This document shows positions 1,281 to 8,033 of a stretch of DNA of 64,000 bases, in pieces; the stretch's first letter is position 1, and each line of letters begins with the position of its first letter. Below the pieces are notes generated by a model that was not told the origin of the DNA, made no database searches, and was given only the letters and a program-made list of their open reading frames with translations. The position numbers were made by a program, and so were the translations under genes. The stretch is from Jiangella alkaliphila (GTDB lineage Bacteria; Actinomycetota; Actinomycetes; Jiangellales; Jiangellaceae), in NCBI RefSeq assembly GCF_900105925.1, contig NZ_LT629791.1:7596001-7660000 (forward strand), written 5' to 3'.

Positions 1281-1299
1281 GCGTTCACCGTACCTGCGC

Positions 1300-2130
1300 G
1301 TGGTTGTCGACACCGACTGCGGCATCGACGACGCACTGGCCCTGCTCTACCTGGCCGGACGGCGTGCGGAGGGTGAGCTGTGCGCCGTCACGACGGTGCA
1401 CGGCAACGCGCCGGTCGACGCCGTGGTCGCGAACGCCGGGCACGTGCTCGGGCTGGCCGGGCGGGCGGACGTGCCGGACGCCGTAGGCGCGGCGGGACCG
1501 CTCGGCGGCGCGCCGCTGCGGACCGCGCCGGGGACGCATGGCGCCGACGGACTGGGCGACGTCGTCGCGGCGAGGACGCCGCCGCGGGTCGTCGTCGACG
1601 CACCGGCCGCCGAGTACCTGGCCGGCCTCGCCCGCGACCGGCCCGGCCACTACGACCTGCTGACGCTCGGCCCACTGACCAACGTCGCGCTGGCGCTGGA
1701 CCTGGAGCCGGCGCTGCTGACGCTGTTCCGGTCGGTCGTGGTGATGGGCGGGCCGGGGCCGGACGAGACCAACGTCCGGCGCGACCCCGAGGCGGCCGGC
1801 CGGGTGCTGCGCGCGCCCGCGCCGGCTGGCCGGCTCACCGTCGTCGGGGTGGACGTCACCGCGACTGTCGTGGTCGGCGACGACGCCGTGCGGCGGCTGC
1901 GCGCCGCCGGGAGGGAGCCGGCCGGGTTCGCCGCCGCGCTGGTCGAGCGGTACCGGTCGATCCGGGAACGCACGGTCACCCCGGTGCACGACGTGCTGGC
2001 CGCGGCGCTGCTGCTGCGACCGGACTGGATCACGGCGAGCCGTCCCGGCCCGCCGGTCGTCGTGACCGACGTGGACCGGGTGGCGTTCCTCGCCGGCTTC
2101 CTCGACACGTTGACGATGGATTTTGGATAA
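1300..2130 (+). CDS. Nucleoside hydrolase (inosine-uridine preferring family)
   Basis: Hydrolyses the N-glycosidic bond of ribonucleosides to base and ribose (purine/pyrimidine salvage), presumably in the cytosol. The N-terminal VVVDTDCGIDDALAL contains the Asp cluster that binds calcium and ribose. TVHGNAP, THGADGLGD, GPLTNVALAL and the late PVHDVL histidine also fit the family. The product is about 276 residues, shorter than the usual 300-320. The MGG segment is followed by PGPDETNVRRDPEAA rather than the standard AEFN motif, so substrate range may differ. GTG 1300 is chosen because it directly precedes the metal motif; no clear Shine-Dalgarno is seen. The gene is divergent from the aminotransferase. 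Confidence 0.82.
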   Translation: MVVDTDCGIDDALALLYLAGRRAEGELCAVTTVHGNAPVDAVVANAGHVLGLAGRADVPDAVGAAGPLGGAPLRTAPGTHGADGLGDVVAARTPPRVVVDAPAAEYLAGLARDRPGHYDLLTLGPLTNVALALDLEPALLTLFRSVVVMGGPGPDETNVRRDPEAAGRVLRAPAPAGRLTVVGVDVTATVVVGDDAVRRLRAAGREPAGFAAALVERYRSIRERTVTPVHDVLAAALLLRPDWITASRPGPPVVVTDVDRVAFLAGFLDTLTMDFG

Positions 2131-2170
2131 AACTCGGTCCGGAGGGATGATTTCCGCGGGTTCGGCCGCT

Positions 2171-2292
2171 TAAGATGAACGAAGCCCCGGAGCACCACTT
2201 GTGCTCTGATGCGTCTGCCCGGTCACTGGGCAGCTGGTTCGGCGGTCACCTTGGACCGTCTCCAACCAACCCTGCCCCCGTGTGGAGACCCA
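2171..2292 (+). promoter_or_regulatory. Structured 5' leader (candidate riboswitch) of the ABC transporter operon
   Basis: A -10-like TAAGAT at 2171-2176 would start a leader of about 110 nt. It holds four consecutive hairpins: 2190-2195 with 2201-2206, 2215-2220 with 2228-2233, 2243-2247 with 2254-2258, and 2258-2264 with 2283-2289. The last stem pairs GTCTCCA with TGGAGAC and so hides the GGAG ribosome site. In addition CACTGG at 2224-2229, in the second hairpin's loop and stem, is complementary to CCAGTG at 2290-2295, which covers the GTG start codon. This looks like translational control by a folded RNA. I could not match it to a known riboswitch class. Confidence 0.5.
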
Positions 2293-3309
2293 GTGGCGCT
2301 ATCCCCCTCCCGATCGTTGCGTGCTGCCCTCGTCGTCGTCGCGGCGGGCGCGCTCGCGCTGGCCGGCTGCTCGTCCTCCGATGGCGACGACGACGACGCG
2401 ACCGAGGCCGCGTCGACCGCCGGCGCCGGTGAGTTCGCGCCGGTCACCGTCGACAACTGCGGCTTCGAGGTTACCGTCGACAGCCCGCCCGAGCGCGTCG
2501 TCACCATCAAGTCGACGGCCACCGAGATGATGCTCGCCCTCGGCCTCGCCGACCGGCTGGCCGGCACCGCGTTCGCCGACGGCCCCGTCCCCGACGAGTA
2601 CGCCGGCGACCTCGACGACGTCCCCGTCCTGTCCGACGACGCCCCCGGCCAGGAGGCGCTGCTCGACGTCGAGCCCGACTTCGTCTACGGCGGCTGGGAG
2701 AGCAACTTCGGCGCCGACACCGCCGGTGAGCGGCCGTCGCTGGCCGACTTCGGCGTCGCGACGTACGTGTCGCCGGCCGCCTGCCAGGAGCCCGAGTATC
2801 AGCCGAACCCGATGACGTTCGACGAGCTGTTCGCCGAGATCCACGAGGTCGCCTCGTTCTTCGACGCCACCGAGGCCGCCGACGCGCTGGTCGCGGAGCA
2901 GCAGGCGCTGCTGGACCAGGTCGACGCGCCCGGCGACGGCCTGACGGCGCTCTGGTACTCCTCCGGCGAGGACGCGCCGTTCGTCGGCGGTGACATCGGC
3001 GCGCCCGCGATGATGATGCGCGAGCTCGGCGTCGAGAACATCTTCGCCGACGTCGACGCCACCTGGTCGAACGTCAGCTGGGAGCAGATCATCGACCGGA
3101 ACCCCGACGTGATCGTCCTGGTCGACGCCGCGTGGAACACCGCCGACAGCAAGATCGAGCGGCTCGAGGGCAACCCGGCGACCGCCGCGCTGCCGGCCGT
3201 CGCCGAGCAGCGGTACCTGACGTTGCCGTTCCCGGCCGCCGAGGCCGGCGTCCGCAACGCCCAGGCCGTCGTCGACCTCGCCGCGCAGCTGGAGGAGCTG
3301 GGCCTGTGA
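2293..3309 (+). CDS. ABC transporter substrate-binding lipoprotein (putative F420-0 / cobalamin-iron type)
   Basis: A periplasmic-binding-type lipoprotein of about 338 residues, class III (BtuF/FhuD-like). The signal peptide ends in lipobox LALAGC (Cys about 26), followed by an acidic linker. The mature part begins NCGFEVTVDSPPERVVTIKS, then STATEMMLALGL, an arrangement I associate with the actinobacterial cassette proposed to import coenzyme F420-0; iron-siderophore or corrinoid binding is the alternative. GTG 2293 follows GGAG by 6 nt; an upstream in-frame ATG at 2209 lies inside the hairpin leader and is rejected. It heads a three-gene operon overlapping the permease gene by 4 bp (GTGA). 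An F420-dependent oxidoreductase gene nearby favours the F420 reading. Confidence 0.8.
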   Translation: MALSPSRSLRAALVVVAAGALALAGCSSSDGDDDDATEAASTAGAGEFAPVTVDNCGFEVTVDSPPERVVTIKSTATEMMLALGLADRLAGTAFADGPVPDEYAGDLDDVPVLSDDAPGQEALLDVEPDFVYGGWESNFGADTAGERPSLADFGVATYVSPAACQEPEYQPNPMTFDELFAEIHEVASFFDATEAADALVAEQQALLDQVDAPGDGLTALWYSSGEDAPFVGGDIGAPAMMMRELGVENIFADVDATWSNVSWEQIIDRNPDVIVLVDAAWNTADSKIERLEGNPATAALPAVAEQRYLTLPFPAAEAGVRNAQAVVDLAAQLEELGL

Positions 3310-4366
3310 CGGCGACCGCCGCTCCTCCCTCCGTGCCGGCCGCGCCGCCGGCCCGGAGGGCGGGTGCGCGCACGACCGCCTGGATCACCGTCATGGCGGT
3401 CGTGCTGGCCGCGTCGGTGACCCTGGCGGTGACGATCGGCTCGGCCGACCTGCACCCGCTGGACGTGTGGCGCTCGATCGGCGACCACCTGGGGCTGTCC
3501 TCGTCGTCGCTGTCGCAGCTGCGCGACGGCATCGTGTGGGAGCTGCGGCTGCCGCGGGTGCTGACGGCGGCCGCGGTGGGCGCCGCGCTGGCCCTCTGCG
3601 GCGCCGTCATGCAGACGCTGACCCGCAACCCGCTGGCCGACCCGTACCTGCTGGGGCTGTCGTCGGGCGCGTCGGTGGGCGCGGTGGCGGTGCTGATCCT
3701 CGGTGCCGGGTCGCTCGGGCTGCCGGCGGCCGCGTTCGCCGGTGCGCTGCTCGCGCTGCTGGTGACGTTCGCGCTGGCCAACCGGCGCGGCGAGCTCGCG
3801 CCGACGCGGACGGTGCTGGCCGGGCTGGCGGTGTCGTACCTGTGCTCGGCGGCGACGTCGTTCGTCATCTTCTGGTCCGCGACCGGCGACTCCTACCGCG
3901 AGATCCTCAGCTGGCTGCTGGGCTCGCTCGGCGGTGCGTCGTGGACCGACGCCGCGATCGTCTGGGTGGCCGTCGTCGTGGTGGGAACGGTGCTGGTGTC
4001 GCGGGCCCGGACGCTCGACGCGTTCGCGTTCGGCGACAGCACTGCCTCGACGCTGGGCATCAGCGTCAACGCGACCCGGTGGACGCTGCTGACGCTCGTC
4101 GCGCTGCTCACCGGCGCCGCGGTCTCCGTCAGCGGCGCCATCGGGTTCGTCGGGCTGATGCTGCCACACGCCGTCCGGTTCGTCGTCGGCTCCGGGCACC
4201 GGCGGGTGCTGCCGCTGGCGGCGCTGGCCGGGGCGAGCTTCATGATCTGGGCCGACACGCTGGCCCGCACGCTGTTCGATCCGCGCGAGCTGCCGGTGGG
4301 AGTCGTCACCGCCTTCCTCGGCGCGCCCGCGTTCGCCGTCCTGTTGCGCCGCCGAAGGGTAGGCCG

Positions 4367-4370
<4 letters not shown>
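3306..4370 (+). CDS. FecCD/BtuC-family ABC transporter permease
   Basis: An integral membrane permease of about 354 residues with many hydrophobic segments and family signatures GAVMQTLTRNPLADPYLLG and a late FVGLMLPHAVRF. It forms the channel for the substrate delivered by the upstream lipoprotein. GTG 3306 overlaps the preceding stop (GTGA), indicating translational coupling, and its own stop overlaps the ATPase start (ATGA). The longer frame to 3132 would overlap the lipoprotein gene and is rejected. Substrate class follows that of the operon (F420-0, corrinoid or ferric chelate) and is inferred. Confidence 0.87.
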
Positions 4371-5167
<797 letters not shown>

Positions 5168-6209: not shown

Positions 6210-6674
6210 ATGACGAAGGACACGATCACCCGCCGGCTCGGCCGGTTCACCCTCGACGAAGGCACCAGGCGCACCGGTCACGACCTCGGCCTGGTCGTCC
6301 TGCGCCTCGCGGTCGGCACGGTCTTCATCGCCCACGGCTGGGGTGACGCGACGCAGCCCGGCGGCGCCGGCGCGAACGTCGAGAACTACCGCGGCGCCGG
6401 CATCCCGCTCCCCGAGCTGAGCGCCTGGTACGGCGCCTACCTGCAGCTCATCGGCGGTGCGGCGCTGATCCTGGGCGGCCTGACCCGGCTGGTCGGGCTT
6501 GGCCTCGCGACCGTCATGGCCGGCGCGCTCATCTGGGTCCACCGGGGCGAGCCGCTGGTCATGGGTCAGGACGGCTCCGGGTCGGGCTTCGCGTTCATCA
6601 TGCTCGCCGCGTCCCTCGCCCTGGTCGGCATGGGCGCCGGCCGGTACAGCGTCGACGGCGTTGTCAGGCGGTGA
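6210..6674 (+). CDS. DoxX family membrane protein
   Basis: A small integral membrane protein of 154 residues with four hydrophobic segments: around residues 26-42 (LVVLRLAVGTVFIAHGW), 72-90, 92-108 and 125-140. The RLAVGTVFIAHG motif is typical of DoxX/DoxD-like proteins, which are linked to membrane redox and oxidative stress; the reaction here is unknown. It is preceded by GTGAAGG, a weak ribosome site, before ATG 6210. It is divergent from the LysR gene, and its 3' end overlaps the convergent F420-dependent oxidoreductase by 11 bp. Confidence 0.8.
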   Translation: MTKDTITRRLGRFTLDEGTRRTGHDLGLVVLRLAVGTVFIAHGWGDATQPGGAGANVENYRGAGIPLPELSAWYGAYLQLIGGAALILGGLTRLVGLGLATVMAGALIWVHRGEPLVMGQDGSGSGFAFIMLAASLALVGMGAGRYSVDGVVRR

Positions 6675-7653
6675 GCTTGGGCAGCACCTCGCGGCCGAAG
6701 ACGTCGATCCAGGTGACCTGGTCGGGGCCGGCGTCGTGCAGGTAGATGTGCGTGGCGCCGGCGTCGAGGTAGCGCTGGATCTCTTGCCGGTGCACGTCGA
6801 GGTCCGCGGAGATGGTGACCCGGCCGTCGAAGTCCTCGACGCGGACCATCCGGGCGATCTGCTCGACGTCGTGCGGGGAGCGGATGTCGGCCTTCGAGAA
6901 GCGCATGGCGCCGTTCGGCCACTCGCGCAGCGCCTGGGCGGCGGCCTCGGCCGGATCCGGCGCCCACGACAGGTGCACCTGGACGATCTTCGCCAGCGCC
7001 GACGGGTCCTTGCCGGCCGAGCGGGCGCCCTCGTCGAACCGGCCGAAGAGCGCGGCGACCTTGTCGGGCGTGCTGGCGACGGTGATCATGCCGTCGCAGG
7101 AGGCGCCGGCCCGGCGGGCGGTGATCGGGCCGGACGTCGCGATGTAGACCGGCGGCGGCGTGTCGGGCATCGTCCACATACGGGTGCGCTCGAGGGTGAA
7201 GAACCGGCCGTCGTGGCGGACGTCGCGGCCGGTGAAGAGCTTCTGGATGATCTCGACGGCCTCGAACATGCGGGCGATCCGCTGCGGCGCCTCCGGCCAG
7301 TAGCCGCCGACGACGTGCTCGCTGATGGCCTCGCCGGACCCGATGCCCAGCCAGTGCCGGCCCGGGTACAGCTGCTCCAGCGTCGCCGCCGCCTGCGCGA
7401 CGACCGCCGGGTGCCAGCGGAACGACGGGCAGGTCGCGCCGACGCCGACCGAGCCGCGGGTGCGCTCGGCCATCGCCGTCATGACGTTCCAGACGAACCC
7501 GGCCTGCCCCTGCTGCGGCGTCCACGGCTGGAAGTGGTCGTCGGCCATGACGCCGTCGAACCCGGCCGCCTCGGCGGCGACCGCCAGCCGCACCACCTCG
7601 GACGGCGCGAACCGCTCGAGCATCGCCGAGTACCCGACCCGCGCACGGCTCAT
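6664..7653 (-). CDS. LLM-class F420-dependent oxidoreductase, G6PD-like family
   Basis: A TIM-barrel flavin/F420-dependent oxidoreductase of 329 residues. The N-terminus MSRARVGYSAMLERFAPSEV, the ADDHFQPW segment and the following PQQGQAGFVWNV, with LGIGSGEAISEH later, match the F420-dependent glucose-6-phosphate dehydrogenase-like subfamily. Start ATG 7653 has GGGGAG 4 nt upstream, so the upstream ATG at 7680 is rejected. It is expected to use reduced or oxidised F420 for hydride transfer; the physiological substrate is unknown. Its presence shows the cell uses F420, which bears on the putative F420-0 importer at 2.3-5.2 kb. Confidence 0.85.
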   Translation of the reverse strand: MSRARVGYSAMLERFAPSEVVRLAVAAEAAGFDGVMADDHFQPWTPQQGQAGFVWNVMTAMAERTRGSVGVGATCPSFRWHPAVVAQAAATLEQLYPGRHWLGIGSGEAISEHVVGGYWPEAPQRIARMFEAVEIIQKLFTGRDVRHDGRFFTLERTRMWTMPDTPPPVYIATSGPITARRAGASCDGMITVASTPDKVAALFGRFDEGARSAGKDPSALAKIVQVHLSWAPDPAEAAAQALREWPNGAMRFSKADIRSPHDVEQIARMVRVEDFDGRVTISADLDVHRQEIQRYLDAGATHIYLHDAGPDQVTWIDVFGREVLPKLTA

Positions 7654-8033
7654 CGTCTCCCCTTCGCCTACCGATGTCACCGGCTTCCCGGCGGTCGGAC
7701 CTCAACGGATCCAGTATCGCCGCGCACCGGCCAGGCCTGTACGGTGCCTGATCCGCGCAGCGGCAGCTGGACGATCGGCGTTCCGGCAGATGTCAACCGA
7801 TCGCTGCGGCAAACCTAAGGCTCATGCTGATCCACGAGGTCCAGCGGGTCCCTGAGCTTCCGGGCTGCCGGGACGAGGAGACGCTGTCGTGCCGCTGGAG
7901 GTCTGCCGTCTCATCCGACGGCAGACCTCCAGCGGGTCGAGCGGCTCCGGTGGCCCATGCTGGGCCGTCAGCCGACGAGGTCGACCCGGGCGCCCTCCTC
8001 GGCGAACTTCATGTCCTGGACCGCCCAAGGCCC
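7654..8033. other. Intergenic region between oxidoreductase and sialidase, with an in-frame coding-like tail
   Basis: No complete gene is supported here. The region holds a long perfect hairpin (7892-7935, listed separately). Directly behind the sialidase TAG, 21 further sense codons in the same minus-strand frame run to TGA 7968-7970 and read like protein (AVQDMKFAEEGARVDLVG). This may be the decayed end of a longer C-terminus or of another gene. The part from 7654 to 7820 presumably contains the promoter of the oxidoreductase, but no convincing -35/-10 pair stands out. Confidence 0.4.
7892..7935. terminator. Long perfect hairpin, probable terminator
   Basis: A perfect 19-bp inverted repeat (7892-7910 and 7917-7935) with a 6-nt loop (TCATCC). 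It lies about 100 bp downstream of the sialidase stop and has no U-tract, as is common for actinobacterial terminators. The core GTCTGCCGTC resembles that of the hairpin at 57512-57559. Confidence 0.6.

Follow-up and report, generated by a model that had tools for sequence, protein, structure and literature searches.

A candidate class of riboswitch-like RNA leaders upstream of FO-supply genes in actinobacteria

Several described systems bear on the locus considered here. The cobalamin riboswitch (RF00174) is a cis-acting element that lies 5′ of BtuFCD-type cofactor importers (FecCD/Peripla_BP_2 proteins) and can hide the ribosome site. The FMN riboswitch (RF00050) exerts feedback control on the supply of a flavin-type cofactor, and the purine riboswitch (RF00167), one of the small three-way-junction aptamers, is built from a closing helix, P1, and the hairpins P2 and P3, whose loops are conserved. 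Among proteins, the families TIGR03868, TIGR03869 and TIGR03873 describe a putative F420-0 importer. Pretomanid and delamanid, two tuberculosis prodrugs, are activated by F420, which also drives many reductions in actinobacteria. No F420 or deazaflavin riboswitch was found in the open-access literature searched.

The window (the whole stretch of Jiangella alkaliphila DNA that was analysed, 64,000 nucleotides) carries an operon in which each gene has one of these three families as its best model, two of the three scoring above the curated cut-off:

2293..3309, + strand: substrate-binding protein, GTG start (TIGR03868, 434.7 bits; cut-off 392.4)
3306..4370, + strand: permease (TIGR03869, 475.7 bits; cut-off 437.35)
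4367..5167, + strand: ATPase (TIGR03873 as best family, 341.1 bits; below the cut-off of 372.4)

The permease and ATPase are kin to BtuC and BtuD. In contrast to what the F420-0 label implies, the Jiangellaceae genomes that carry the leader element described below are without cofG/cofH and, where searched, keep cofD, so the cargo is more likely FO than F420-0; FO is our best guess for what the TIGR03868 importer carries. An inosine-uridine nucleoside hydrolase gene (PF01156, window 1297–2130) ends ~40 nt 5′ of the importer promoter, and an LLM-class oxidoreductase gene (F420-dependent family TIGR03557, 292.8 bits; cut-off 210.4) is found on the minus strand at window 6664–7680, 1.5 kb past the operon. 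Since the sequence upstream of the importer promoter differs in several relatives, leader and importer appear to move as a unit.

The leader of the operon has the following features:

2171..2176, + strand: −10 promoter box TAAGAT, 5′ of the element (on the basis of TANNNT in 66/70 leaders)
2182..2240, + strand: candidate aptamer, a three-way-junction RNA of ~57 nt comprising P1, P2 and P3 (match to model R2)
2183..2186, + strand: P1 5′ strand AGCC, partner of 2236–2239
2188..2208, + strand: hairpin P2 (unconstrained fold, and double changes in 70 leaders)
2215..2233, + strand: hairpin P3 with a conserved loop (stem 2215–2220/2228–2233)
2236..2239, + strand: P1 3′ strand GGTT, partner of 2183–2186
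2241..2260, + strand: extra hairpin, Jiangellaceae only
2258..2263, + strand: anti-Shine-Dalgarno strand GTCTCC, partner of 2284–2289
2284..2289, + strand: GGAGAC, which includes the Shine-Dalgarno GGAG (2284–2287), partner of 2258–2263

A first-pass annotation of the window had placed four hairpins here, and all four are present (2188–2208, 2215–2233, 2241–2260 and 2258–2263/2284–2289), with GGAG at 2284–2287 buried in the last. Its leader boundaries need revision, as P1 (2183–2186/2236–2239) was missed: by sequence comparison, the conserved unit is 2182–2240, closed by P1, with the third and fourth hairpins added in particular lineages. The leader is more stable than after dinucleotide shuffling (z −2.07, 2/200). 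A pseudoknot had also been proposed over the GTG start; its two strands, CACTGG at 2224–2229 and CCAGTG at 2290–2295, do exist in the window, but CACTGG occurs in 3/18 leaders (L001, L003 and L009) and the others read AGTGG, so this pairing was rejected. A coding extension of the 366-aa open reading frame from ATG 2209 was ruled out as well, as frame and stops vary between species.

Orthologues of the importer, with ~69–93% protein identity, occur in Jiangella, Phytoactinopolyspora and Haloactinopolyspora. In an alignment of 18 Jiangellaceae leaders, the core that runs from GCCC through the third hairpin is 87% identical and its flanks have diverged. Pair cells, P1 included, are standard in 98% of cases, versus 37–48% when partners are slid by 1–3 columns. 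P1 is paired in 97% and P3 in 100%, and the extra hairpin at 2241–2260 is 97.6% paired, with UA-to-CG changes. The GTCTCC strand is kept in 11/11 Jiangella leaders read, but not in all Phytoactinopolyspora leaders. A model of the core from Jiangellaceae leaders only (R1) was searched against 394 genomes of the class, yielding one copy in each of 19 Jiangellaceae genomes and none in the other 375. The element is thus present in 19 of 22 Jiangellaceae genomes, as a single copy that is always 5′ of a TIGR03868-type importer. Across 84,980 species, each represented by one genome, matches to an exact pattern were likewise limited to Jiangellaceae, one of them a metagenome-assembled genome.

The structure itself extends further. 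Of 350 genomes in a second family (f36), 96 encode importers above the TIGR03868 cut-off, as do 7 of 246 in a third (f26); the two families are perhaps Microbacteriaceae and Nocardioidaceae. Their leaders contain a ~57-nt three-way junction, consisting of P1 (typically GACC/GGTC), P2, a linker that often reads TGCGTC, P3 with a GGATTT-like loop, and the P1 3′ strand. Free alignment of all leaders with MAFFT misregistered P1, so a model (R2) was built on a uniform subset of 18 f36 leaders, with no Jiangellaceae sequence among them. R2 matches most of the remaining f36 leaders, ~12 more Jiangellaceae leaders at the same place, and window 2182–2240, the top-scoring place of the whole stretch (20.6 bits; E 0.006 in 273 kb). 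In the reverse test, R1 matches f36 leaders at the element, and its seven best matches are all there. Five further f36 importer leaders (L103, L106, L109, L093 and L105), which R2 misses or misplaces, resemble diverged elements and may reveal dispensable bases.

Compensatory change was assessed in an alignment of 70 leaders (A5). Changes on both sides were seen in 12/16 pairs, and 147 such cells were counted versus 55 in shuffles (0/500), in an alignment that was fitted to the structure and so biases pair counts towards it. P1 is 94.5% paired, with changes on both sides in 3/4 pairs, while double changes occur in all 6 modelled pairs of P2 and in 3/6 pairs of P3. When isolated elements were folded freely and without an alignment, mean pair probabilities were 0.62 (P1), 0.75 (P2) and 0.64 (P3). 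The covariation search that the first-pass annotation proposed was thus positive, and a conserved 5′-leader RNA structure with compensatory changes is what is expected of a riboswitch. Judged by these comparisons, the element spans several actinobacterial families as one class.

A further model, R3, was searched over 330 f36 genomes, where its matches lie 5′ of the importer with few exceptions; roughly one-third of f36 importers are without a match. In the whole J. alkaliphila genome, R3 matches at a single place. Weak class-wide R3 matches in G115, G152, G305 and G313 were discarded, as they overlap long open frames (five were inspected, including G462), and a second match in G415 looks like chance, by eye alone.

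The position of the element relative to the promoter is also conserved. A TANNNT box lies 3–9 nt 5′ of the element in 66/70 leaders, versus 3.8 expected from shuffles, which puts the 5′ end of the RNA close to P1; in the window, transcription should start at ~2182. Farther upstream is a TTTTGGAT-like block, which at window 2116–2135 reads ATTTTGGATAAAA and whose f36 counterpart is a TGGATCCA palindrome. It was seen ~50–60 nt 5′ of the element in L061, L092, L096, L098, L101 and L111, and its spacing to the downstream promoter is similar in several leaders from two families. This block is perhaps a repressor site.

The element does not correspond to a catalogued RNA. Rfam yielded nothing at gathering score over the whole window and, around the leader on the sense strand, nothing even at E ≤ 10, in keeping with the earlier view that the leader belongs to no known class. 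With Rfam 15, the element has no matching family, whether one looks at the window, at twenty f36/f26 leaders or at the further over-cut-off loci scanned. The FMN riboswitch model had no covariance match in the window or those twenty leaders. The cobalamin riboswitch model had none in the window at any threshold, and none at the five over-cut-off f36/f26 importers scanned. It was found at 10 of 11 sub-cut-off importer homologues scanned, of 35–48% identity (L020, L027, L028, L030, L075, L076, L077, L078, L081 and L089). Some loci of homologous importers have two substrate-binding genes in tandem.

Genes of the F420 pathway offer a guide to the ligand. A search for FO synthase, which covered the Jiangellaceae, found cofG and cofH in none of the 19 element-bearing genomes. 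On the other hand, cofE is present in 19/19 of them, and cofD in 13/13 of those searched (G000–G011 and G015). Absence of cofG/cofH with retention of cofD/cofE is the pattern of FO salvage, seen here in Jiangellaceae only and for cofD in those 13 genomes; such cells should need external FO. A complete FbiC is encoded by G012, a member of the Jiangellaceae that has no element.

In the neighbour survey, 17 loci were searched for known F420 and transporter genes. A cofD gene follows the ATPase by ~20–140 nt on the same strand in 9/15 f36 loci; its identity was confirmed for two of these nine proteins and for that of G448. At the two f26 loci, an LLM oxidoreductase gene comes right after the ATPase, and one of the two products is above the TIGR03557 F420-family cut-off. 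In the f36 genome G448, the element (30.7 bits) lies behind a TATACT box and 5′ of fbiC, followed by cofD, with no importer at that place, as if FO synthase had been substituted for the importer. The 3′ side of this element, CACTGGGCAGCAGGTTC, differs from that of the window, CACTGGGCAGCTGGTTC, by one base. This fbiC instance is one genome, and its score alone could be chance (E 0.0046 per genome, over 330 genomes), although the position 5′ of fbiC makes chance unlikely. The element was not found in six fbiC leaders outside f36, which rules out its placement before fbiC as a general rule.

Taken together, the TIGR03868-type importer, cofD and fbiC form a consistent regulon that fits one metabolite, and the gene context points to a ligand of the F420 pathway (FO, F420-0 or F420). 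Of the ligands first suggested, the F420 pathway therefore stands; a corrinoid does not, given that cobalamin riboswitches belong to a separate group of homologues, and for an iron chelate no supporting context was found.

How the element might act on expression was examined by folding. In the window, the probability that the Shine-Dalgarno is unpaired falls from 0.34 when free to 0.02 with P1–P3 enforced, and the Shine-Dalgarno is mostly paired in every state. In the free minimum-energy fold, GGGCAG (2228–2233) pairs with CTGCCC (2272–2277), disrupting P3. Over 59 leaders with the aptamer enforced, Shine-Dalgarno accessibility is lower in 21 and higher in 12. Neither GGGCAG/CCUGCC as a class-wide switch helix nor pairing of the P1 5′ strand with the Shine-Dalgarno fared better than shuffles over the class, and no expression platform shared by its members emerged. 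As the alignments and folds have it, an aptamer-like part is common to the class and the downstream part varies by lineage. The predicted drop in accessibility in the window fits an OFF switch; over the class, the change goes in both directions. The translational riboswitch of the first-pass annotation thus holds as a structured leader in a riboswitch-like position; the translational mode is plausible in Jiangella only, as the Shine-Dalgarno-hiding hairpin is not in all Jiangellaceae and a common platform was not found.

The computed structure, conservation, promoter position and gene context are best read as an undescribed actinobacterial class of cis-acting riboswitch-like RNA that controls FO supply, which we consider likely; from these we infer that a ligand is bound, that it is a deazaflavin (and which of FO, F420-0 or F420), and that the importer is turned OFF. 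On this model, the three-way junction at the mRNA 5′ end would bind an F420-pathway deazaflavin (FO, F420-0 or F420) and control the genes that supply FO, namely either FO synthase or the ABC importer, which in f36 is usually accompanied by cofD. With plentiful cofactor, the junction would be stabilised and the downstream RNA would fold to hide the ribosome site, in Jiangella by pairing of GTCTCC with GGAGAC, and importer synthesis would drop. By the logic of cofactor supply, ligand binding probably switches the importer off. On balance, we also favour the stronger statement that FO or F420 is bound directly by this RNA as a riboswitch class, which would be the first deazaflavin-cofactor RNA sensor and would control FO import in auxotrophs and, in a relative, FO synthesis, across at least three actinobacterial families.

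The same data can be read in other ways. A regulatory protein, either autogenous or F420-responsive, could bind the element in place of a small molecule. A small conserved junction at the mRNA 5′ end would serve such a protein, and the lack of a common expression platform suits one that blocks ribosome entry; the unpaired bases of loops and junction, however, are conserved in the way expected of an aptamer, and we regard a protein as unlikely. That a riboswitch of this kind senses another signal, such as FMN, riboflavin or redox state, draws on the origin of FO from an intermediate of the riboflavin pathway, but is rather improbable next to neighbours that are cofD, cofE, fbiC and F420-type oxidoreductases, and with no match to the FMN aptamer. 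The stems might instead merely stabilise the mRNA 5′ end, as hairpins at +1 can do, or tune translation constitutively, in line with a window Shine-Dalgarno that stays largely paired whatever the state; conserved loop and junction sequence, association with FO-supply genes only and one copy per genome make a non-sensing role quite improbable. A variant cobalamin riboswitch 5′ of a corrinoid importer, suggested by the kinship to BtuC/BtuD and by the cobalamin riboswitches of homologous importers, is largely refuted and very improbable: RF00174 has no match at any threshold, the element has 57 nt versus 189 model positions, and the five scanned importers above the TIGR03868 cut-off are without it. 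A DNA operator is hardly credible, for despite inverted repeats near the promoter and a TTTTGGAT-type block upstream as well, G-U pairs are common, P2 varies in sequence but still pairs, and the element is 3′ of the −10 box.

With this element, two questions become testable together: what the TIGR03868 importer carries, and how uptake is regulated in cells without FO synthase. It further suggests an exchange of FO among soil bacteria.

Compared with the described systems, the element appears to resemble the purine riboswitch in its closing helix and two hairpins with conserved loops, but has no Rfam match. It resembles the FMN riboswitch in its proposed role, but differs in architecture and in having F420 genes as neighbours. 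A further parallel is the cobalamin riboswitch. The element lacks its sequence and structure and is one-third its size (57 nt versus 189 model positions), and the importers of the two RNAs fall into different sequence groups; yet both are cis elements 5′ of homologous cofactor importers, the element may likewise hide the ribosome site, and the two alternate with one another among those importers.
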